DNA of 64,000 bases from Isoetes taiwanensis (lineage: Eukaryota > Streptophyta > Lycopodiopsida > Isoetales > Isoetaceae), in the NCBI GenBank assembly GCA_021234155.1, contig JAJEKV010000058.1:4350600-4414599 (forward strand), read 5' to 3'. Of the stretch, positions 8,616-64,000 are shown piece after piece. The translations under genes and the position numbers were made by a program. Within the stretch, counting starts at the first letter, position 1. The number at the start of each line of letters is the position of its first letter. The notes under the pieces are model-generated. The model was given only the letters and a program-made list of their open reading frames with translations. It searched no databases and had not been told where the DNA came from.

Positions 8616-9090
8616 TTTAAAGTTTCTAGTGTTTGCAAGTAAGGCCAGTCGAACTCAATAAATGTGATCTTTGTTACTATCTATAAATAGAAACTTGCCC
8701 TGTATCTCGCATGTTTTCCTATCTGCTTACCATGTCTGCGTTTTTTGTCGAAGTTTTTCACAGCCCTGTAGTTACTTCGCAGCCAAGATATGCCCAAACA
8801 GATCTTCGCATGCCAAGATGTGTAGCGGCCAGAATTTCCGCCATTTGCAAGAAATCTAACTGATCTGTTTGTCAACTCTCCGGAATCGTGCTTTTCATTT
8901 GCAAATAGTGGATAATAACAATGGATAATGATAGATCGGCCAAGTTTATTGAAGATCTGGCCTTTTCCCCCAGGTCAGAATGACCTTTTCTTATCAGATA
9001 TGGAGATCCGGCCAAGCTTGGCGTGTCTGATACAAAATTGGCTATAATAGGTCGATGACCCGTTATCAGCCAATTAATAACTTTTAAAAT

Positions 9091-52550: not shown

Positions 52551-54110
52551 ATGGATATCTGGAAACAACTTGCACATCGCATGAATTCTCCTATACAACC
52601 TTATTCTGGTTATTTGTGGACAAAGACGTGTTCACATTGTGGAACCAAATTAATGTCTGCTGAGAATGCATCCTTCCGCTATAACAATGGTAAGAATATC
52701 CTTCCTCGTTTGCCTCTTTTATCAGGGTCAATAACATTGTTGTATGACCAGCTGAGCATTAGTGTTGATAGTCGAAATTGAATCATCCTTTTTTATTCAC
52801 ATCTCTTGGTGTTCATGGTCAGTTTATGACGTTGGCCATGCCATCCTCTGTGGCAATGATGGGCCATTCATATCATCAAATTCTTCCAGTTTCAAAACCC
52901 CGCATTGGTATATTTATGATGAAAGTGGCAGGTATAGTGATGCCACTGAACATCTTGTGTCAGCACAATGGTTTTGCAATTGGGTGCAATGCTTGACGCT
53001 GTCAACCCATTTTGTAAGTTTATAAATAAAAGTAAAGGATTTACAACTCATGGTCTAGTGGCAGGACTTTAAACTGCCACACCCAAGGTCACGGGTTCAA
53101 ACCTGACCAATATCAGTCTAGTAATGGGGACCTTAAATCCATTACCCCGAGGTCACGGGTTCAAGTATGACCAACCGGTCCTATGGTAGAGACCTTAAAC
53201 CTGCCATATGTACTCGATAATCACATGCAAAGCAGCTCCTAGCATATCGCGCCTAGGTAGTGGATTGGCTTTCATGTGATATGTAGAATAAAGTGATGTA
53301 GAATGTACTCATGATGTGATGATGAATAGAATAACGTCCTTCAATAAAAAAAAAACAGCGACTTTGACTGTCAATAGTAAGATTGCAACAAACGATGTGG
53401 CTGCTATTGTCCATGCAAATAATACGTCATCACTTGATTCAATAATTGCCGTATTCTGGTTACATGACCAACAACAACCTGTATATATGAGCATTTTAGA
53501 TGCGCACTATGAGCCATTGCGGTATCCATTATTGTTCCCACGCGGGACTTTGGGGTGGTGTCCTTATAATGAAATGGGTTTGTCACATATAGCTGGGTAT
53601 AGATTTCGAATTTTACATGAACTGCGATTCTTTCAATTAGGTTTTAACCTGTGAATACCTTGTTGACATGTATTCTAGGGTGGAGGATGAGTGCCTAAAT
53701 TTCCTTGCTACGCAAGGATATAGAAAATCAGCAATAAATGTTGAGGAAGATTTTGCTGAGGATGAAGAGCCAAGTGCCATTAACCCTGGCCTGCCATCGT
53801 CTTTTCTGGGATCAAGACGTTGGTTTTCTTGCAAAATAGCGGACGCTCTAAGGGTCAACCATCATTATTTATTACAATGACAATAAATCCACGTTGGCCA
53901 GAAATTGAGTCACAGTACATTATAGCCAAACAGCTGTCGAGCTGCCAAGTGCCATTGTAAGGTCATTCCATCTTCGATTGCAATGTTTGAAAGCATTGTT
54001 GCATGACTATTTTGGCACAATTCTATATATGCGTCATGTTATAGAATTTCAGAAATGTTATCCTAAGCCTTTGAACGCCTATACACATATAATGAAAAAG
54101 AACCACGATT
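52551..54110 (+). pseudogene. Helitron Rep/helicase N-terminal remnant
   Basis: Broken plus-strand frames follow the order of the Helitron-like N domain. A zinc motif CSHCGTKL comes first (52638-52660), then FTSLGVHGQF and PRIGIFM (52790-52910), then AMLDAVNPFCKF at the end of the first part (52988-53025). After an insertion the frame resumes at about 53316: IATNDVAAIVHAN, then HYEPLRYPLLFPRGTLGW (53500-53560), then LPSSFLGSRRW, then NPRWPEIES (53885). Near 54020-54090 IEFQK is followed by LNAYTHIM, where active Reps have the HUH nickase motif (PHAH type), so the motif is degenerate. No helicase domain follows. Frameshifts and stops throughout. Confidence 0.78.
53046..53210 (+). repeat. Tandem tRNA-like hairpin units (SINE-like) inside the Helitron Rep
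   Basis: Unit 1 has box A (TGGTCTAGTGGCAGGA, 53051-53066), a 7-bp stem GTGGCAG/CTGCCAC, and box B (GGTTCAAACC, 53094-53103) in a second stem (GGTCA/TGACC). Unit 2, about 62 bp later, repeats the plan with AGTCTAGTAATGGGG, stem GTAATGG/CCATTAC, and GGGTTCAAG. Unit 3 is partial (GGTCCTATGGTAGAGACC, stem near ATGGTA/TGCCAT). The stems are kept while their sequence changes. It falls where the Helitron Rep homology is interrupted (about 53026-53310). Confidence 0.55.
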
Positions 54111-54451
54111 CCATTATTTTGAAATTATTCCATCATTTTGAAATTTACAAATAGTGACAACCCCAATTTCAACAATGTGGAATTGCATGTAAATACTTTT
54201 TATTATCAGCATTAATTCTAACAGGTCTCAAATTACAAGTTAACACTTATCACAAGCCAGTATTCCACATTCAAGTAGATGTAACTCAAGTAGATAATCA
54301 CAAGCCAGTATTTCACATTCAAGTAGAGTAAGATACTCATATACTAAAAGTAAGATTACAATGAAAGCACGAAGACAATGAAAATGCACTGAAAGTAGGA
54401 TTACAATGAAAGTAAGATTCATATCATAAGATACTCATGAACTCTCGTACT
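54111..54451. other. Spacer, probable 3' region of the transposase gene
   Basis: Contains two copies of CACAAGCCAGTATT(C/T)CACAT about 52 bp apart (54247 and 54299) and repeated AGTA(A/G)GATTACAATGAAAG. It lies just downstream of the minus-strand transposase gene and may be its 3' UTR. No terminal inverted repeat was identified. Confidence 0.35.
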
Positions 54452-56790
54452 TTATTTTGCTTGTTCGGCTATCTTCTCTAGTGACTTCAGAACTTTATCC
54501 TTCACAGAGATTGGAATCTTCATGCACCCCTTTCTCGGATCCACCTTGCCCTTTCTGGGGTTCCATGACATCAACACGGATTTTATTTCCACCCATTGGG
54601 CCGGATCACTTGCATCATACTTCCATTGCTTATTAAAACAATCTTTGTAGCGCTCTTTTTCAGTAATGACTCCTTTTCCACTTACTGGATGCCACCACTC
54701 CACATGCACCTTGTTTCTGTTAGGGTTATTAGCTTCCCTATAAACACTCGAGATGGTATACCCTAACCAAATAGGATAAGTATCTTCATCTGATGGCCTG
54801 ACGATCAAATATTGGCCATCCTTCAAATCCATCTTAGGATCATATGGAGGCAAGTCCATAATACTTGGGACGCTCTTTTCTAGGTCCAACATAGTGCTCT
54901 TCATCCTCTTCCACCTCCTCTTCATACTCCTCTGTCATCAAGTGGATCGGCTGCTGATCAGGTTGGAATTGACCATGGTCGAGCCTCCATCGACTTTGAG
55001 GTAGCCAACCCTCTCGAACGACGCTACTACTTGTGTCCAAACTCCCTAAAAGTATATGAACTTCATTCCAATAATTTACAAGTGCTTCATTGCACGCTCT
55101 TCTCTCTGGTGCTATGTGTTTATCTGCTAAGGATTTCTCCCAGTACTTTATATAATCCATTATCCCTTCCATAGTCCGTTCACAGTCCTTCACTTCTCCT
55201 AATGGTTTCATAGCTTTAGGCTCTCCCGTTGGCACCATTGGTTCACCTGCCACATCCTCTTTCCAAATCAATATATCTTTATCTTCCGGTTTCCACACAG
55301 GATCTCCAGCCCTCATCTTGTATTGCATTATTGGCTTTCCATTCTTCACCCAAAACCTAAATTACAATGGAGCGCTATGCCCAATAAGGTCTTCATGAAC
55401 ATAACCCTCTATGAACTCTTTCCACTCGGGGACTTCTTGTATCAATGAACCAATAGGAGGAGGTGAAGAACACTGCTTAAATAGCTCCAAAGCCTCGGAT
55501 AGGTGGTGATGTCACTTTTCTGCAATTTGATTCTATAATGCCCAAACATTGCATCAATGTCTTTGTGAGTGTGGCCAGGCATCAAGTAACCAACATAGAC
55601 CATTTCAAACACTCCAACCCATGTAAGATACGACAAGTATGCAAACAAGTATCTATTTTTATTCTGGCCAGCACAATTGTCAAGTTGCAAGAGTAGCTTC
55701 TTGGGTAGTCGGCACCTCAATATTGGGTTCACATGAATTGAAGGTGCTGGCCCATTGCATCCTTCCTATGGTCAAATCCTCTAGTTTCATGGGACCAGTG
55801 TCATGCAATGCCTTGAAGAGATGCTACAATGGCTTACAAGAATGAACATCTCCATTAAAACCATGTTCCAAATCGCGCAATGCTTTTGCAATGCTACCAA
55901 CATAGAAGTTTGGACCATCACCCCATAATTCTAATGTAAAATGACCGTGATGCACTGCTCCCTGGCTATGAGTTATGAATCCAGCTAGTGATATTTGCAA
56001 TGGAAAAGACCTTGCAACAGACTTTGGTATAGCCCTAAACTGGGGCAAACAGGTTTTTTGCTGATCCATCTTGTCATGAATGACGCATAGAAAATTCTCT
56101 GGTTCCATTGTAGACAAGCATCTCCACATCCAGTATGTTGATTGACATAGCATTTGCTCCATCGTGTGAATTCTCATTTCCTTCCGAACCGCTGATCTTT
56201 CCACCTCAAGCTTCGACTTCTCGAGCTTATCTAACAAATCCACGCATATATTGCACTTTGAGAAGTTGTTATATTGCATTCTTTTGACATCTGAAAAATG
56301 CTTACTCCAGAGTTTGCTGAAGGCTGATTGTGAAATCTTGTCCACACCCATTTCCTCTAGAAGACTGTTGATCATTTGTAAAATCACTTTTTGTGTGAAA
56401 TATGCAGGCAACCTTCGAACTACTTTCCTGCATCCCTCTTCATCAACCGCACTTTTGTGAGGCATACTCTCAGCATGATAGTTAACAAACTTCTCGAATA
56501 AACTCTGAGCTGCAAGCACCCTGAGGGTTGTCCTCGCCTTTCCCCGATTACCATGCCAACCTATTTGAGCCCCCCTCTTTTGGTTCCGCCTTAATCTCCA
56601 CCATGTAGAGGCTGAAATACCTAGTATGGTTGTCATTGCACTGCTGCATATCCATTTCCCACCAATAGTAAATCCCCTGTTCCTGACATTAGGTGACGGC
56701 CCAAATGCATGCTCTATTATATTGTAACTATTAAGTTTTTCTAGCGTCATGAGTTTTCTCCTTGTAGATTGATCGGGCTTCCACAAGTTC
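54452..56790 (-). CDS. DDE-like transposase, DUF7869 type, with frame breaks
   Basis: Minus-strand pieces 56786-55824, 55732-55442, 55349-54840 and 54925-54452 belong to one protein. The first has FSKCNICVDLLDKL (a metal-binding C-x2-C), IRIHTMEQM, and HDKMDQQKT with the first candidate catalytic Asp. The second has LLQLDNCAGQNKNRY (second Asp) and MPGHTHKDIDAMFG (third acidic/His block). The rest is a C-terminal region (EWKEFIEGYV, DPVWKPEDKDILIW, YPIWLGYTISSVY). This arrangement matches the RNase H-fold family I know as DUF7869, found in plant, protist and animal mobile elements. Breaks: an in-frame TAG near 55827, frame changes near 55745 and 55500, TAA near 55362, and a frame change near 54880. 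Introns explain few of these. The product would act in the nucleus on DNA. The family call is good; activity is doubtful unless the breaks are sequencing errors. Confidence 0.72.
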
Positions 56791-56885
56791 TTTCACTGTG
56801 AATCTACCAAAGCAGTTGTTGGGGCAGCCACAATCCCCCCCTCTGATGGCTTGCATGGTCTCGTCACTGCAGTTGTTAGTATCTT

Positions 56886-57575
56886 TCACAGTCTGCACTT
56901 TTCCTTCCTCTTCTTCCTCTTCAAGAAATTGTATGCCCTTCTTTCTGGTATGGATACATCCAAAGGAGGTATGGAAGGAATGTCATTTTCATCTACCACC
57001 ACATTATTTTGTCCAACACGCTCAATTCTTTGAAGCATCCCTTTTCCTATCATCTCAATGGAGTCCACTGGCCAGAGCAACAAGGCTGACAACTCTAAAC
57101 CACTGTTGATATTATTGCAAGCATAGCAGTGTCTGTCCTTCAGCTCAACACTGAAGTTATGAAGCTGTATTGAGGAAATGGAGACTCCCACAAAGTCATC
57201 ACCAATAGCCTGTCCATTATAGCAGTGCATAGGATCCCATAGTATAAGCACACCTTCACCAACAATTCCTCTATTGCACTGATGATGCAAAATCACTTTC
57301 TCGTCCTTCCATGTTAATCTGGAAACTACCATTCTTCTTTCCTCATTAGCACTAGTTGGGTTTTTAATATTTTCTGCAGTCGCTTTAGGTGGCTGCTCAT
57401 TCTTATTTGTATTAATCTCTTCCACATCCATGTAATCAACATCATTCTTCTCTGCTCGAGGTTCTTGGTCACAGGGTTCCCCAGCAGTAGCTTCATGAGA
57501 AATCTGAAAATTAGAAGAAAGGTTGGGGAAAACATAGTATTGTATGCAATAACAATAAATGAAATATCTATACAA
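56886..57575 (-). CDS. Unrecognised protein or upstream exon of the transposase gene
   Basis: A 229-codon frame just upstream of the transposase on the same strand. After a dubious start it gives an acidic, polar stretch (QEPRAEKNDVDYMDVEEINT), then a segment with C and H residues (HHQCNRG, LKDRHCYACNNINS) and ends in a basic run (RRAYNFLKRKKRKEKC) that could be a nuclear localisation signal. I recognise no family. The 100 bp between it and the transposase frame contain stops, with a possible acceptor near 56796 (TTCACAG on minus), so the two may be exons of one gene. The true start is uncertain; the first 30 residues look like intron or UTR translated by chance. Confidence 0.45.
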   Translation of the reverse strand: MYRYFIYCYCIQYYVFPNLSSNFQISHEATAGEPCDQEPRAEKNDVDYMDVEEINTNKNEQPPKATAENIKNPTSANEERRMVVSRLTWKDEKVILHHQCNRGIVGEGVLILWDPMHCYNGQAIGDDFVGVSISSIQLHNFSVELKDRHCYACNNINSGLELSALLLWPVDSIEMIGKGMLQRIERVGQNNVVVDENDIPSIPPLDVSIPERRAYNFLKRKKRKEKCRL

Positions 57576-57583
57576 TGCCTACA

Positions 57584-57692
57584 CCGCGCTACACGCGACA
57601 GTGCGCGCGACACGTATGGACCATAATGTTGTAAAAACCATAAGAAAATTATATTAATTTACAAAATACAGATATGTCGCGCTAAGCGCGAC
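57584..57692. repeat. CGCGCTA-type palindromes, spacer pair
   Basis: CCGCGCTACACGCGAC at 57584-57599, GTGCGCGCGACACG at 57601-57614 and GTCGCGCTAAGCGCGAC at 57676-57692 are members of a 16-19 bp palindrome family. They lie in the spacer between the minus-strand genes to the left and the small plus-strand gene to the right. Other members: 60747-61217 and 62404-62528. Confidence 0.7.
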
Positions 57693-57820
57693 TCATACAG
57701 AAGTACCCCATTTGGACACGTCACCAGATATCCCATTTCGTAGCACATTTCCAATTTCGTATTTGTTGAATCAGTACAAATATCATTTCCCCATTTCAAT
57801 CTCTGCAATTTGTCTTCTCA

Positions 57821-58312
57821 ATGGGCTATGTAACCGGTTTGGTGCATGTCGATGCTACCAACCGTGGACATGTGCATGAGCGAGGCTTGGCCTTGAGCCT
57901 CACCAAAGCCCGCGACAGGGCACTCCAGAGAGATATCCCGGAAGCAACACTCTTCCGGGATTTCAACAACATGTTGAGGAGGTTCGACCATCTCCTCCCT
58001 GTCTCTGAGGAGAGATGGATGTGGAAGTACGGAGCCGGGAGTGGCAGGCTTAACAGAAGCCCAGTTTAATGCCGAGATTGCAGATGTAGTCCTCCATGCA
58101 GCTGCAATTATCGGCATAAAATTTGTTTTGACCATTTCCTAATCCTCAAACCTGGGCAGAAAGACTTGTTAGAGAGTCTAAGGACCCACCATTCTGGAAT
58201 CCTGGAGGCCAAGATGAACAGCCTCCTGATGATCACAAACATGGATCCAGATAGACTGGATTACATTGTACAGAGGACAGTAGTTATTGATCCTGCACCA
58301 CTGCTACTAGAA
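57821..58312 (+). CDS. Small unrecognised protein, one probable frameshift
   Basis: ATG at 57821 opens an 82-codon frame (MGYVTGLVHVDATNRGHVHE, then LSLTKARDRALQRDIPEATL and FRDFNNMLRRFDHLLPVSEE). It stops at 58069. Shifting frame near 58040 keeps plausible coding (GLTEAQFNAEIADVVLHAAA), and a third segment before 58312 reads MITNMDPDRLDYIVQRTVVI. AATAAA follows at about 58351. I do not recognise the family. The opposite strand is also open here (57818-58135), but its composition is less protein-like. It lies head-to-head with the minus-strand block to its left, with the palindromes between them. Possibly an accessory gene of the same mobile element. Confidence 0.4.
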
Positions 58313-58529
58313 TAGCTTTCATAAAGCTCAGATGTATATATTTTTTTTGTAATAAAAAACATTTTTTGTTTCACAATTCTTTCTACTTGTTGTGTTCTTC
58401 TCGGGCTGGGCGCGAGTCTTTTATTCTCATAGTTAGATTTACTATACATATTACATTTAGTTAGTTAACCCAAAAAACCACTACAGAGTCACTTCAAATC
58501 AAGTTCTTGCCTGGATGCAGGCGACTTTT

Positions 58530-58775
58530 TATTCAACAAGATAGATAGATAGATAGATAGTATTTTAACGTCACGCCACTAGGCAGCATCCAACTGGACA
58601 TGTGACCACACACCACACTACATTGCTTGGTTGGGCCCTGCCCCCAACCACTTTACATTGCGTCTGTGGGTTTTGACACCCAACAGTTCAGAGTGCGATT
58701 CTGGGCAGTCTCGAACTCGAGACCTATAGTTGCTACTAGTGTGTTACCACTAGACAAGGAAAAACCATGGGAGTT
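58530..58775 (-). mobile_element. Candidate tRNA-derived SINE with GATA tail
   Basis: On minus, box A-like TCTAGTGGTAACAC (58754-58741) is followed by box B-like GAGTTCGAGACT (58722-58708). It ends in a (TATC)n tract, seen on plus as GATAGATAGATAGATAGATAG at 58540-58560. Spacing of the boxes fits a tRNA-type internal promoter. It separates the small plus-strand gene from the DUF8039-like gene. No target duplication was identified. Confidence 0.45.
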
Positions 58776-58794
58776 ACAAAAGAAGACAACTCTT

Positions 58795-59675
58795 TTACCA
58801 ACCAGGCTCATCATGAGCAGGTAGCACGGTCACTCTCTTAACTTCATAAACACCATGCTCTGGAACCCATACATGGTGAATGACAACCTTATATATATCA
58901 GGATAACTTCTAGCAGAGGCCATTGCAACTCCCTGCAACCAAGGATCGAGTTCCAAGCCCCTCTGCTGGCATCTATAAATTTCAGAATAGTTCATGGAGC
59001 AAATGATGGAATCCACATATTCTAGAGCCAGTGGCAGGGTAGATCGACAATTGCAATTAGAACAGGATGTGATCGGATTGCGGGACATGACTAATGCGCT
59101 GCCACTGAGAGGTACTCATATTTATAGCACGAGGAATATAGTAGCAGCATTATTGTGTAGACATACGAGTATGCATGTGAGTAGCACATGAATAGGTGAT
59201 ACGTGAAATATGTTACAGTAGCTACAGTAAAGAGCAACACTGCTACAAAAAAAAATTCAGTACATACCTCTCTGAGTAGTGTTGTTGGCCAAGCCAAGAA
59301 ACTCCCTACTGATTCTCCCAGTGTTTCTGCTCCTGCATGTGGTCTTTGTAATGGATGAGTGGCAGCATAGCAGTCTGTCAATCTGATTCTAATATAATCA
59401 GGTCCCAAGGGCACTCCACGGCATGCTGTAGTTGGTGCCATGTTATCAACAATGCCCTTGCCAATGACATCTTTCTTGTTTTCTGCTAACAAGAAGCATG
59501 CTTCTCCAATGGAAATTTTCATTTCTCCTGCTTGATTGTTCATTTCCTCGACCTGCAAAGCTTTGTTAATTAAGTTGCACAAGCCATGGTGCCTCAATCC
59601 ACTCACTTGATAGAGAACTACCTGAGATTCGGCAGCCTGATCCAGCGCTTCAGCGAGCTTCCTTCTTGGCGACAT
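58795..59675 (-). CDS. Plant transposon protein with DUF8039-like domain
   Basis: Exon 1 is 59675-59268: ATG at 59675, coding MSPRRKLAEALDQAAESQVV onward, and it ends at a good donor (AGAGAG/GTATGT). Residues about 65-135 match the domain I know as DUF8039 of plant En/Spm-associated proteins: a KKDVIGKGIVDN start, RGVPLGPDYIRIRL, and the signature TLGESVGSFLAWPTTLL, where family members read G-x-SVG-x-F-x-AWP. Exon 2 is probably within 59088-58795 (NYSEIYRCQQRGLELDPWLQ, VIHHVWVPEHGVYEVKRVTV), stop near 58795; the acceptor is unclear. The N-terminal part is predicted helical. Function in the family is unknown. It is divergent from the ParB-like gene, sharing a spacer of 609 bp. Confidence 0.6.
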
Positions 59676-60284
59676 CCCAAATTCGAATTAAAACACTGTA
59701 ATGAAAACACATTTCTTGTGTTTCTCTAGGCGCATCAGAGAAACACAAATTCTATGATCCAATGCGAGGCCAAGAACATAAATTAAATGGTGGGCATTTT
59801 TAAAATAGACGGTTAGTACAGGCCAATGATTGAAAAATAGTTGGGGAAAGGGATATTCGCGGGCGGCGGGCTAAAAGATTTTAAATTTTAAATTGCGGGC
59901 AATTTTCTTGTTTAGCTAAACAAGGATAAGGGTAGTACAAGCTTTCAATGGCGAGGGTCTATTCATTAATTGTTTGTATGACCCGTGTAATAATCACATT
60001 TTCTAATTTCAAATGTAATTTAAATCTCATTTTTTCATTCCTAATTTCTTCCAGAAGTTTTGCTTCGACCGGCTTCCGAAACCAACGCAATCTTCTTGAG
60101 CGATCTCTCAAGCGATCCAAATTTTTGTAACGCTACCTGCATTCCGAGCTATCATACTTCATTTCCGGCCTGTTTACAACAATTCCGACTCGATTTGAGC
60201 TTCTCGAGCTTCCGGAGATTCACCCGACCTTCTCGAGCTACAACAGAGTTCAATTCCAATTTTTAGAGCTTCAAGCACTTCGAT
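59676..60284. promoter_or_regulatory. Divergent spacer between the DUF8039-like and ParB-like genes
   Basis: 609 bp without coding potential that I can support. It should contain both promoters. The 3' half (60020-60284) is pyrimidine-rich with TTCGA/TTCCGA words and probably forms the 5' UTR of the plus-strand gene; a weak repeated motif TTCTCGAGC(T/T)(T/A)C occurs at 60201 and 60229. No CGCG palindromes occur in this spacer except a GCGGGCGGCGGGC run near 59861. Confidence 0.4.
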
Positions 60285-63200
60285 ATGGCAACTAAAGGTT
60301 AGTATGTTCGAGTTCTTAATGGAGGAGGAACTCTGTGACTCTATTTTTATTAGGTTTTAGAAACCTTCTGCTTGTGTGCTTAACTTTATTAATAGATTTA
60401 GAAACTCTGAGACTCTTTAATTAACACTGTCACTCTGCAACCTAGATTTGATTAGATTACTGTTACCCTGATTACTGTTATCCTGCATCTCTGCTACTTG
60501 GCTTGTATTTGTTTGCAGCTTATTCTTTGTTTGATCATGTGTTCAGGGTTTTCTGCTTAGTCTGAATTGAATCTGCAATGCTCTGTGATTATAATTCCTA
60601 GTATCTTAATCTTCAATTGTAATCATCAGAGACAGGGAACTGGGTTACGCTTCCTTGTGCTATGATTTTCTTTTTTTATGAAGCTTACTCTCTTTGATGT
60701 GTTCCTATGATGAAGCCTTCTGTGGAGTGCCGTTGGTCTATGGATTTCTCGCGCTTAGCACGAAAAGTTCAGATTCTATCGCTCTTAGTAAGCGTATATG
60801 GTTGTTGAGGTCATAGTCGAGGTCAACCCTTCGGGAGGACGGTAAGAGAGTTGGAATATGAATTCTTGCGCTACACGCTATAAGCGGGTTATGCTTCCTT
60901 GTGCTATGATTTTCTTTTTTTATGAAGCTTACTCTCTTTGATGTGTTCCTATGATGAAGCCTTCTGTGGAGTGCCGTCGGTCTATGGATTTCTCGCGCTT
61001 AGCGCGAGAAATTCAGATTCTATCGCTCTTAGTGTACGTATAGGGTTGTTGAGATCCTAGTCGAGGACGGTAATAGAGATGGAATGTGAATTCTTGCATT
61101 ACATGCGAGTAGTCACATTCCATCTATCTTACCATCCTGGATCATTCGACTCACGCTACACGCGAATCCTAAGACATTGCTCTCAGACTTTACAGACTTG
61201 TCGGGCCACGCGCGAGATGTTGGTCAAGTTGCTTAACATAGAAATACTTTAGCAATGTCTAACTTGATTATTTATTTTACAGCTTCCAAGAGAGCACTAG
61301 TTACATCATCTTCTGCACCATCAAAGAAACACAAGAAGGACCCCAAGGTAGTTCAAGAAGAGGCAGAGGAGATAGATCGAACTCTTGGCATAAAGCTAAT
61401 TGATGACGGCAGAGTCATAACATGCGAGCTAAGTCAGGACTTGGCAGAGACAGTATTTGTTGAGGGGTCTGAATGGTATGTTACTGTGAGCAGGATGAGC
61501 TCAAAGTATGACGTGGTCCTGCATTCAAGGGAGAACAAAGACGCGGCCTTCAAAAAAGTAGGGTTGATCCTTTCATGCGAGGAGCTTGATGACCACATCT
61601 GTGTCTTCATAATAGAGAAGACCGTAAAGAAAAATCTCAGCATTTCCAAATACAATGTGGATTCAGGCCAGATAAGACAGCAAACAGTGTTACAAAATAT
61701 GGCTGGCCCATTGAAGGCTCAAACCATATAGTTTGTTCTGTATATGAAGGAGTATCTGCAGTCTGACGAAGTTTGCAGAAGAAACCATCTTCAAGCTTCT
61801 ACATATCTGGTTTTGGTGGTAGTGGCGATGCACTTGAGTCAGAAACTTCCCCCCTAGCACCTTTGCCAAAGCCAGTGAAGGAAACGGATATTGAAAAGAA
61901 ATCAAGGGTTGATGCTATGAAATTCAACCAATGGTATCCACTTGGTTTAGATGTCACAAAAAGGATAGCTATTGACAAGCTGATAAGATCTCCTAGAGCA
62001 TCTTTCATATCTAGGATCTTTGATCCCAAACATGCCCTGAGGATACAGAAGTCCATGGTTGAATATCCCACCACAGTACCAAATCCAGCTGATGTTCTAC
62101 CATGGGACTCAGTCAATGACAAGCCATACCCATGGAAGGCATGGGATGACCTAAGGAAGAGCGACACGGTGCGCTACATTGAAATTGACGGGCAGCACTC
62201 AGTTGAGGCAGCGAAGGCGCTTATAGAGAAAATAGATAAGATAGGTGCCAAGGAGTACAGGGAGCACTTCAGCTACAGGCAATGTCGAATCCTTAGTCAT
62301 TACACGCCTCAACTTGCACTGACTACAATAAGTGCAGACTTGAACACAACTGCAAGGGTGGTACAATACAACTCGTAAGTGCCTTTGTTTCTTAATAACC
62401 TCAGTCGCGCTACGCGCGAGACTGCAGATCAATGTTGGGCTGCAGACCCAACGTTGGTCTGGTGTCTCGCGCATAGCGTGACTAAGCTTTTTACTTTCTC
62501 TATTCGGAATGCTCGTGCTACGCGCGAAATGGAGATCTATATGGTACTAATGGTTTTATATTCTTATCTCAGACCATATCCCATGCAATTGAGGCAAGTT
62601 AGAAATCAATGGATTGAGCTTGGCCGTCCAATTTCAAAGAGAAAGAAGCAGGGGGAGAAGAAAGACAAGTCTTACGACGAAGTGATTAAGATGATCAGCA
62701 AGGTCATCATACAAAAGAAGAAGGATGTTGATTGTGATGAGGCTATTAAACGCCTCAAGGTGGCACAAGGAGTTTGAGTATATAATGTGTATGGGTGGTT
62801 TTGCTTAGTGGACTATTTCGTCCTCTAGGTTTTGAGTCCCATGTCACAAGTCCCTTGTATGTATCTTGATTTTTCTTGATAATAGATTGTCTCCTTCAAA
62901 GAAAAAAAGAAGAAGAAGGATGTTGCAGAGGAGGAAGAGGAAACTGGCACCAAGAAGAAGAAGTCCAAGGAAGGCCCATCAGATTCCTACCACATAGTGT
63001 TCAGTCCTGATCATGTGTGGGACAAATGGAATGAGGTGTGGAACAAGTGGACTACAGGAGAGCTTGTAGGAAAAGCAGGGAAACCTGAGAAAGGATCCCT
63101 TGAAGATTTTACAGTTACAGACTTGAGGAGTGCACGGGGGTTAAGGGAAGAAGAAATTCTCAAGGTGCTCCAGTCTGTTATAGATGGACAAGTCTTTGTG

Positions 63201-64000
63201 AAGAAGGTCTCAAAAATCAAAGAGGTACCATCCTTTCCAGAGGCCTGCAAGTCCATGAAAGACCTCCGCATCATGAGGGAGGCCATCTCAAAGGAGCTCT
63301 TCGAGATGTCTGGAATACAAAACCTATCTGAGCAAGGTATCTTGGGCATGATGAAAATAACAGATGAAGACCTGCTCAGGTACTCGAAGTGGTCGCCTGG
63401 ATTTATTCAAGCATATAAATCCAGGAACAAGGAAAAACCAGCCCATCTGCCATCAAAGGTCCGTGTGGAGCTGAGGTGCAGAGTCAGCGGGGACTTGGAC
63501 ATTCCTGAGACTATATCAGAAACCTACATGGTGAAGTCCTGTCAGGGTTCCATGGTTGTTGCCACCCAGACTATTCCAAAGACAGCTTCATTGTTTGTGG
63601 TGGACTGTCGGACATACCCTCAAGATATAGACTACTACATCTCTATGCTCTCAAATTGTAGCAGACCACCCAAGAGTACATCACACTTGTGTTCCTGTCT
63701 GAACCTGCAGAGGAATATCCAAAGATCTTGCAGAAGGATGGTCGCCAAAAGCTTCCTGAGCCGATACTCAGATTTACAGAGAAGGAGAGCTTGGATAATT
63801 ACCTCTGGACGGATGAGCTTACTCCTAACCTGACTACTGAGGAATGTGAGAAGGAATTAGAGTACAAACAGGTTGGCCTGAAGGGAGGTGCAGTGAACAA
63901 GTACAGACTAAGCTCGAACTTGGCTTTCTACCTCGTGGATACATTTGTGCCCAAGGGAGGCTTAGTCTGTGACTACTTTATCAATGGTAGGGTTGGGCGT
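60285..64000 (+). CDS. ParB/DGQH-type domain joined to a degenerate DNA methyltransferase-like domain, partial
   Basis: Proposed exons are 60285-60297, 61283-62374, 62573-62759 and 62886 onward, open at the window end, with GT-AG borders that keep frame (AAAG/GTTAGT, TTTTACAG/CTTCC; ACTC/GTAAGT, TATCTCAG/ACCAT; CAAG/GTGGCA, TAATAG/ATTG). About 800 residues so far. After a basic start (SKKHKKDPK) comes an unrecognised segment. A ParB/Srx-like domain covers about residues 215-375: KRIAIDKLIRSPRASFISRI, then YIEIDGQHSVEAAKAL carrying the G-x-H...AA signature, then LTTISADLNTTA. Lys- and Glu-rich linkers follow. Residues about 640-800 follow the order of N6A/N4C methyltransferases. ASLFVVDCRTYP sits where DPPY belongs, and SSNLAFYLVDTFVPKGGLV then CDYFINGRVG sits where VLDPFAGSG belongs. 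Both catalytic boxes are altered, so inactivity is likely. A frameshift near 61697, a TGA near 61765 and a frameshift near 63657 interrupt it. No direct homologue was confirmed. Confidence 0.6.
60642..61110 (+). repeat. 244-bp tandem repeat within intron 1 of the ParB-like gene
   Basis: Copies start GGGTTA(C/T)GCTTCCTTGTGC at 60642 and 60886 (offset 244). They share GATGTGTTCCTATGATGAAG, GGTCTATGGATTTCTCGCGC and CAGATTCTATCGCTCTTAGT. The second copy has a perfect palindrome (TCTCGCGCTTAGCGCGAGA) where the first has a mismatched version. Divergence is roughly 12 percent. Confidence 0.75.
60747..61217. repeat. CGCGCTTAGCGCG palindrome cluster in intron 1
   Basis: Members at 60747-60763 (CTCGCGCTTAGCACGA), 60866-60879 (GCGCTACACGC), 60991-61009 (perfect 19-bp palindrome), 61150-61165 (CTCACGCTACACGCGA) and 61201-61217 (GGCCACGCGCGAGA). 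All lie in the 985-bp first intron. In AT-rich DNA this density of CGCG words is exceptional. Confidence 0.75.
62404..62528. repeat. CGCGCTACGCGCG palindromes in intron 2
   Basis: GTCGCGCTACGCGCGAG at 62404, TCTCGCGCATAGCGTGA at 62465 and GCTCGTGCTACGCGCGAA at 62511 lie in the 198-bp second intron. The first two are also inverted copies of each other over about 20 bp, 60 bp apart. Confidence 0.75.

Follow-up and report, generated by a model that had tools for sequence, protein, structure and literature searches.

A Sola-like DNA transposon of Isoetes taiwanensis with an accessory gene of probable ParB-DNA methyltransferase ancestry and candidate lineage-specific recognition palindromes

The closest described relative of the system reported here is Sola1-1_Ec32, a transposon of the brown alga Ectocarpus that encodes an accessory protein with ParB-like and N4-N6 methyltransferase parts (PMC12477816). 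The open text of that paper cites similar proteins in transposons of green algae (Iyer et al. 2011) and red algae (Petroll et al. 2025), and its authors propose that the accessory protein binds and modifies the DNA of its own element; ParB-methyltransferase proteins in transposons are therefore already known from algae (PMC12477816). We analyzed a stretch of 64,000 nucleotides from Isoetes taiwanensis (contig JAJEKV010000058.1, positions 4,350,600 to 4,414,599; hereafter, the window), which ends within a plus-strand gene with ParB-like and methyltransferase-like parts. Very probably, it is carried as an accessory gene by a Sola-like (DUF7869) DNA transposon of the cut-and-paste type, and its product stems from a fusion of ParB with an N6/N4 DNA methyltransferase. 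As in the available description of Sola1-1_Ec32, a protein with ParB-like and amino-methyltransferase-like parts is transcribed opposite to the transposase of a Sola-type or, here, Sola-like element. Unlike in Sola1-1_Ec32, the host is apparently a vascular plant, two lineages lack the methyltransferase motifs while keeping the protein, a NIF-type phosphatase gene has been added, and candidate recognition palindromes can be named, of which the open text on Sola1-1_Ec32 (PMC12477816) makes no mention. As far as open PMC text shows, these features, including motif-less maintained lineages and palindromes specific to each lineage, are new, and the element class is now placed in an apparently vascular-plant genome.

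The open text of other papers describes systems that resemble parts of this one. The VANC proteins of Arabidopsis VANDAL elements bind short, often tandem motifs in the non-coding parts of the elements, and these motifs vary between related elements; they are not described as palindromes in that text (PMC5735166), whereas the motifs reported here are palindromic. An element-encoded protein paired with short element-specific motifs is the closest working analogy to our locus, as a likeness of model with no sequence relation claimed. VANDAL elements use a different transposase, and their VANC proteins are anti-silencing factors, marked by a loss of DNA methylation on the elements that they target. 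Retrotransposons of dinoflagellates and charophytes carry DNMT (PMC5890265) and share with our elements a DNA methyltransferase borne by a transposable element, but theirs is a C5-methyltransferase in a retrotransposon, whereas our elements are DNA transposons and their protein is of the ParB-amino-methyltransferase kind. Bdelloid rotifers have N4CMT, whose N6_N4_Mtase domain is of bacterial origin and acts on eukaryotic DNA; unlike the present gene, it is a host gene with a chromodomain and lies off transposons (PMC8885841). Finally, the bacterial ParB-methylase Bce_0392 fuses ParB to an adenine methylase, and its ParB part is reported to nick DNA nonspecifically (PMC5512222).

A preliminary description of the window, made from its letters, had proposed a spliced plus-strand gene with a ParB-type motif and two decayed methyltransferase motifs, and these motifs are indeed encoded there. 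IDGQHSVEAAKAL lies at 62184-62222 in the ParB-type exon, with IDGQHSVEA at 62184-62210; DCRTY, which resembles motif IV, is encoded at 63603-63617 within SLFVVDCRTY; and CDYFINGRVG, which resembles motif I, is encoded at 63968-63997 and preceded by SSNLAFYLVDTFVPKGG, all on the plus strand. The 5' part of the gene (60285-61731) is composed of a presumed short first exon (60285-60297), an intron and an N-terminal domain. It is followed by the ParB-like domain exon (61767-62374), by the linker domain and motif-IV-like part (62573-63640) and by the motif-I-like part (63662-64000). As had been anticipated, the gene extends past the window end and continues in L003, the stretch next to it (positions 262-633). 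GT-AG borders are present at the ATG exon (60285-60297), at acceptors 61280-61282 and 62570-62572 and at donor 62375-62376, and relatives with continuing frames suggest that transcripts would use these introns. The window copy itself is broken, which the preliminary description could not show. Compared with the more open copies L005, L008 and L010, it is damaged in at least four places: a stop or frame change at 61729-61766, where the 5' part ends (this part is continuous in L005 and L008), a surplus of approximately 165-195 bases around 62731-62908, a change of frame close to 63650 and the loss of approximately 148 bases near 63732. What the window holds is therefore one decayed copy of a gene that is repeated in the genome, rather than a functional plant gene present once. 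Because the ParB-like exon is a high-copy repeat, chance is excluded as the origin of the motifs.

The repeated unit is a DNA transposon, as the preliminary description had suspected, and is delimited by terminal inverted repeats (TIRs) and target-site duplications. By comparing copies, we set its limits at window position 54101 and C1065:4416143 (window-equivalent 65544), which gives a length of 11,444 bp. The left TIR, AACCACGATTCCATTATTTTGAAATTATTCCA (54101-54132, plus strand), starts with AACCACGATT and is 32 bp long, as is its partner at C1065:4416112-4416143 (window-equivalent 65513-65544). The element is flanked on either side by the 4-bp duplication AAAG (54097-54100 and C1065:4416144-4416147, the latter past the window end). 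We searched the genome (1,658,258,908 bases in 1110 contigs) for further copies, scoring only the best candidates, so that all copy counts are lower bounds. Allowing two mismatches at most, we found at least 150 matches to the 32-bp terminal word on each strand, against none for the same word read backward. In all four elements with both ends and AACCA-type TIRs, a count that leaves out the family-3 element introduced below, the 4-bp flanks match; besides AAAG, the duplications are CTAT (C941), TATT (C1027, a family-2 element of 13,714 bp) and AGAG (C1066). TIRs are also found as 31 bp perfect repeats in C1066 and as 34 bp repeats with 88% identity in family 3, while the copy on C1028 showed one end only, with no second end found within 17 kb.

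The left half of the element holds on the minus strand a transposase gene in several exons or pieces (54452-59687), with DUF7869 at 55445-55765 (Pfam E 2.7e-28). A DUF7869 transposase is common to the three lineages that we distinguish, namely families 1 (that of the window), 2 and 3 (E 2.7e-28, 9.4e-30 and 1.1e-52, respectively). Sola elements encode a DDD transposase; we take DUF7869 to belong to Sola transposases and call the element Sola-like only. The right half holds the ParB-like/methyltransferase-like gene, followed by the NIF-type phosphatase gene, whose NIF domain exceeds the Pfam cut-off of 21.8 bits both in L003 (46.3 bits, E 4.6e-12) and in L007 (57.8 bits, E 1.4e-15). NIF/FCP1 phosphatases of the HAD type have the catalytic motif DxDx(T/V). 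This motif was not found in the aligned copies, which read FDLNGVL and keep the first aspartate, while the second is asparagine in all six covering copies out of seven aligned. For Sola transposons, target-site duplications of 4 bp are described, together with TIRs that vary (available text of PMC10741241); the four AACCA-type elements above have both 4-bp target-site duplications and TIRs.

These genes recur together in the genome, in a conserved order. The ParB-like exon has at least 159 matches (of 3260 initial candidates, the 150 best were scored), the methyltransferase-like piece at least 144 and the phosphatase at least 154. By their identity to the ParB-like exon of the window, the copies form two subfamilies, at roughly 48-100% and roughly 40-45%. 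Starting from 93 hand-entered family-1 ParB-like places, we found a methyltransferase-like piece within 3 kb of 60 and a phosphatase within 6 kb of 35, always downstream and on the same strand (60/60 and 35/35). In addition, 59 of 110 methyltransferase-like places have a phosphatase within 4 kb downstream, and one pair shows the opposite arrangement. When positions were shifted by 50 or 200 kb, the same counts fell to 0-1.

Active N6/N4 DNA methyltransferases are marked by motif IV, [DNS]PP[YFW], and motif I, DPFxGSG. A search with partial motifs, which misses places with other changes, found neither of them in the window lineage, in agreement with the loss of catalytic residues proposed in the preliminary description. 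Family 1 has SLFVVDCRTY in seven distinct places and CDYF(V/I)xG in six, and family 2 has SLFVLD with no PPY following in four places and LELHV in five. The amino-methyltransferase domain is instead found in family 3, whose loci join a ParB-like piece, VLGGNHSFKARR, to motif IV DLPYG and motif I LDAFSGSGTT. Motif IV thus reads DLPY in place of DPPY. The best 150 of 1444 genomic candidates for Pfam N6_N4_Mtase were scored, and all exceed the curated cut-off. Single family-3 pieces match this domain with E-values of 2.3e-18, 5.7e-19 and 2.1e-17, and the family-3 methyltransferase profile finds MboIIA (E 7.1e-11) and CcrM (E 4.1e-10) in the PDB. The C1051 copy has its methyltransferase gene head to head with a DUF7869 transposase gene, both enclosed by inverted repeats that are 8.1 kb apart. 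A DUF7869 match (from the best 150 of 9907 candidates) lies within 15 kb of 24 of the 150 listed family-3 methyltransferase places; in 22 of these 24 pairs the transposase is upstream on the other strand, compared with 0-1 in shifted controls.

Family-3 copies picked through Pfam keep DLPYG (4/4) and GSGTT (5/5). Those picked through the palindromes described below keep DLPY (4/4 readable), and their motif I is damaged in all three readable cases: one has a deletion, one has G in place of D and stops upstream of it, and one has a broken frame. The C1051 copy carries frame changes, and among the family-3 copies examined we saw none with a gene open from end to end. The lineage thus appears to have kept its motifs long enough for them to show in many copies, while individual copies decay. 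The prokaryotic relatives of the family-3 methyltransferase are only distant (27-39% identity among the matches listed) and therefore no donor can be named. None of the four prokaryotic matches that were fetched is annotated as a ParB-methyltransferase fusion, their domains not having been scanned; tblastn of the family-3 ParB part gave no match in phages, and the search for related loci returned no relative in viral contigs or bacterial genomes.

The window lineage is linked to the methyltransferase domain only by profile comparison with family 3. The motif I regions of the two lineages align in hhalign with Prob 85.8 (E 5.4e-6) and the linkers with Prob 71.8 (E 3.5e-5), while 20 control pairings of unlike segments reached at most 0.6. 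Over the whole length, the comparison gives Prob 74.3, against 0.4 for a reversed profile. There is also a weak match between the N-terminal domains, at equivalent positions (Prob 0.85, against 0.1-0.4 in controls). Within the ParB part, IDGQHSVEA aligns with LGGNHSFKA of family 3 (Prob 1.5), and at the place expected for motif IV SLFVVDC aligns with TLVIADL (Prob 0.17). Because unlike pairings reach 0.6, the former is only slightly distinct and the latter not at all. Descent from a ParB-methyltransferase fusion, as first proposed, is supported by this sister lineage of the same layout, in which the methyltransferase motifs are present; at the level of profiles, the motif I region and the linker sustain it, the ParB pairing is weak and that of motif IV is not significant.

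We assessed selection on open copies by the pairwise ratio of nonsynonymous to synonymous divergence (dN/dS, Nei-Gojobori; 17 pairs, three of them with saturated synonymous divergence and no ratio). Four within-family pairs of the ParB exon give ratios of 0.09-0.20; the motif IV region gives 0.11-0.16, the phosphatase 0.13-0.31 and the family-3 methyltransferase piece 0.06. These values suggest that the degenerate protein of the window lineage is maintained by selection. Since they are far below the neutral value of approximately 1, the loss of the motifs is probably old and was tolerated within a maintained protein. Less favorable to this conclusion are the higher ratios of the piece that comprises motif I and the acidic tail (0.41-0.48) and of two recent ParB-exon pairs (0.27 and 0.31, with wide intervals), as well as the choice of open frames, which favors low values, although neutral copies would still lie near 1. 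Because the methyltransferase motifs have decayed and selection has nevertheless kept the protein, the window-lineage product is most likely a DNA-binding pseudoenzyme that has lost catalysis. In ParB/Srx pockets of the Bce_0392 type an arginine is described (available text of PMC5512222); the window and family-3 proteins have HS at this place (DGQHS and GGNHS, placed by eye), which suggests that both have lost the pocket chemistry.

Short palindromes differ from lineage to lineage and hardly occur in the flanking DNA that we examined. The words are TCGCGC-NNN-GCGCGA in family 1, AAATCACGCC(A/T)GGCGTGATTT in family 2 and CAAAGTGTATTCCGGAATACACTTTG in family 3, and they lie mostly in introns; those of family 3 are also found in the region that separates the divergent genes. 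In the window, family-1 palindromes occur in intron 1 of the ParB-like gene (at 60749 and 60993, within 60749-61007), in its intron 2 (at 62405, 62467 and 62513 (weaker), within 62405-62527), in a transposase intron (57677-57691) and, in imperfect form, just right of a small nested frame (58401-58415). We counted palindromes with at most one mismatch (at most three for family 3), using one shared pattern for families 1 and 2. The window element has seven, while the 54.1 kb of the window outside it and 7.9 kb of right flank have none; the family-2 element has ten, with none in 6.2 kb of flanks, and the family-3 element eight, with none in 8.9 kb of flanks. The repeated word of the window matches 15 times over both strands, always within the element, where 0.09 matches are expected. 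The elements of families 1 and 2 lack the family-3 word, and the family-3 element lacks theirs. Genome-wide, the family-3 word has 1823 sites with at most one mismatch, and the family-2 word matches 159 times in forward and 171 times in reverse orientation, while control patterns (reversed, for family 3) gave none of either. In a small check, the palindromes led to family-3 elements: all six palindrome places taken from contigs off the methyltransferase list have family-3 coding pieces in the 6 kb read (tblastn), which include ParB pieces in five places and come from the transposase alone in the sixth, against 0/11 for background pieces.

We propose that the ParB-like protein encoded by an element recognises the palindromes of its own lineage, both the intronic ones and, for family 3, those of the intergenic region. 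The bound protein would mark or open the chromatin of the element or regulate its genes, in the manner of VANC for VANDAL, and the family-3 protein would in addition methylate element DNA, as N6-methyladenine (6mA) or N4-methylcytosine (4mC). Such methylation is likely for family-3 copies that still work. That the ParB-like protein rather than the transposase binds the palindromes, with anti-silencing or self-regulation as the outcome, is what we infer. Protein and palindromes both differ strongly between family 3 and families 1 and 2, and less between families 1 and 2. We give this mechanism about an even chance, and we favor to a moderate degree the whole explanation of a transposon accessory gene, a pseudoenzyme and palindrome recognition. 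The most complete version is more tentative, and we rate it somewhat below even: a self-recognition system of vascular-plant transposons, in which an active or dead protein binds lineage-specific palindromes in introns and the promoter region, helix-phased in two of three lineages, with one lineage writing 6mA or 4mC and the others reading, and with protein and sites co-diverged so that each lineage tags only itself.

Under this proposal, the self-binding and epigenetic self-modification suggested for the algal element (available text of PMC12477816) gains nameable candidate sites that differ between lineages and is thereby simply testable. A natural comparison is also offered between a writer (family 3) and apparent reader-only forms. 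The existence and function of 6mA in eukaryotes have been called controversial (available text of PMC12695648), and family 3 would bear on this mark if it is true that it writes 6mA or 4mC.

Several observations weigh against palindrome recognition by the ParB-like protein. When two mismatches are allowed, the family-1 pattern also occurs at 9012 and 24850, outside the element. Palindromes of any kind exceed shuffled sequence in family 2 (37 versus 9-23) and family 3 (24 versus 9-14) but not in the window element (17 versus 11-20), which holds no tandem palindrome array. A listed exact palindrome lies within 6 kb of four of ten listed methyltransferase places (C1-C265), and the other six have none on the list, which holds exact sites alone. 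Many family-3 copies may moreover be dead, including the three palindrome-picked ones with damaged motif I. Most directly, the palindromes lie in transposase introns too, and the transposase could be their reader. This is the main rival: the palindromes would be sites of the transposase or of a needed host factor, and the ParB-methyltransferase-like protein would act otherwise, by nicking, modification or stabilisation of the element. Besides the site at 57677 and those between the divergent genes of family 3, it would account for a family-2-like element on C1066 that has transposase and phosphatase pieces and two palindromes, and among whose frames no ParB-like piece was seen. The sites, however, lie well inside the elements, away from their ends, and the related ParB-like proteins of families 1 and 2 go with related palindromes, while family 3 differs in both, an argument that does not decide, since the transposases may diverge in parallel. 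On balance we consider transposase or host-factor sites unlikely.

The palindromes could also work in RNA, as hairpins within introns that direct splicing or give rise to small RNAs. They are self-complementary and mostly lie outside coding frames: in family 2, 78 of 88 sites are outside the stop-to-stop coding frames, which take up 55% of the length, and ten are inside. Nine of these ten are at frame margins and were judged intronic, leaving one of 88 after trimming by hand. Family-3 sites, however, also lie between divergent genes, and the cores are conserved in sequence, beyond what pairing requires. In addition, the commonest spacing is 32 bp in family 2 (23/70) and 42 bp in family 3 (13/17), near three and four helical turns, which fits a role on DNA in two of the three families. 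Arrays with repeat units of these two lengths occur in families 2 and 3, respectively. Family 1 shows no such phasing (commonest spacing 46 bp, 6/27), and regular spacing may simply come from tandem duplication of a unit. A role in RNA appears improbable to us, and clearly more so than transposase sites.

Still a little less probable is that the likeness to ParB and amino-methyltransferases is superficial and that the gene encodes an unrelated transposon accessory protein. Taken alone, the resemblance of the window lineage to ParB is weak. Among the scanned family-1 and family-2 proteins, Pfam, PHROGs and NCBIfam gave no significant ParB or methyltransferase match, and a direct Pfam scan of the window pieces returned nothing usable. 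The ParB exon of these families matches phrog_1033 in seven of 11 aligned relatives (best E 0.011), DndB in four (best 0.011) and DUF6742 in five (best 0.012). The family-3 ParB piece matches TIGR03764 (E 0.0011 and 0.0072) and phrog_723 (0.019 and 0.29), and families of unknown function rival these (phrog_30771, 0.0089; DUF6551, 0.0023). All ParB-like matches are below curated cut-offs where these exist, and searches of the PDB reached only chance level (best E 0.11 for the ParB-like profile and 0.31 for the family-3 ParB part). We use the label ParB because of these weak matches, of the position in the protein and of the published ParB-methyltransferase proteins of algal transposons. Against a superficial likeness, two segments of the window lineage, the linker and the motif I region, match a bona fide methyltransferase lineage collinearly and independently, well above the unlike pairings, and the match over the whole length is well above that of the reversed profile. 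Lastly, a host gene recently captured by the transposon and now drifting, which would account for the many broken copies, is very improbable and was rejected as an origin of the ParB gene, as two subfamilies at approximately 42% identity share the same gene set and layout, with dN/dS well below 1.

Other features accompany these elements. A small frame nested in a transposase intron in the window (57770-58315, plus strand, two pieces) is possibly a further element gene: it is a single open frame of 228 amino acids in L009 (1728-2411, minus strand), a piece of it is found in L005, and it has no Pfam match above cut-off. The terminal stretch of the family-2 phosphatase in L007 (1531-2172, minus strand) matches DUF433, a small domain of bacterial antitoxins, with an E-value of 0.0003 that is below cut-off. 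On C1031 (10984487-11036834), six family-1 methyltransferase-like pieces lie within approximately 52 kb, each followed after approximately 1 kb by a phosphatase piece, which suggests a local tandem expansion.

Family 3 was also considered as a Helitron, on account of a hairpin near its right end, and this was rejected by the inverted repeat at both ends and the transposase. A palindrome near that end, CGGGAGTGCTGCA(G/A)CACTCCCG, is present in two copies (L028 5986-6013 and L023 875-900) and differs from the intronic palindromes. The family-2-like element on C1066 (8251660-8259058; L026 7661 to L027 6059) adjoins a family-3 unit. We rejected that the two form one tail-to-tail element, since the former has its own perfect 31-bp TIRs and AGAG duplication. 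Finally, Ty3/gypsy-type retrotransposon frames, identified by eye as integrase, reverse transcriptase and gag, sit to the right of both the window element (L003 5567-9998, minus strand) and the C1027 family-2 element (L007 2-1051), and are 95% alike over 1.2 kb.

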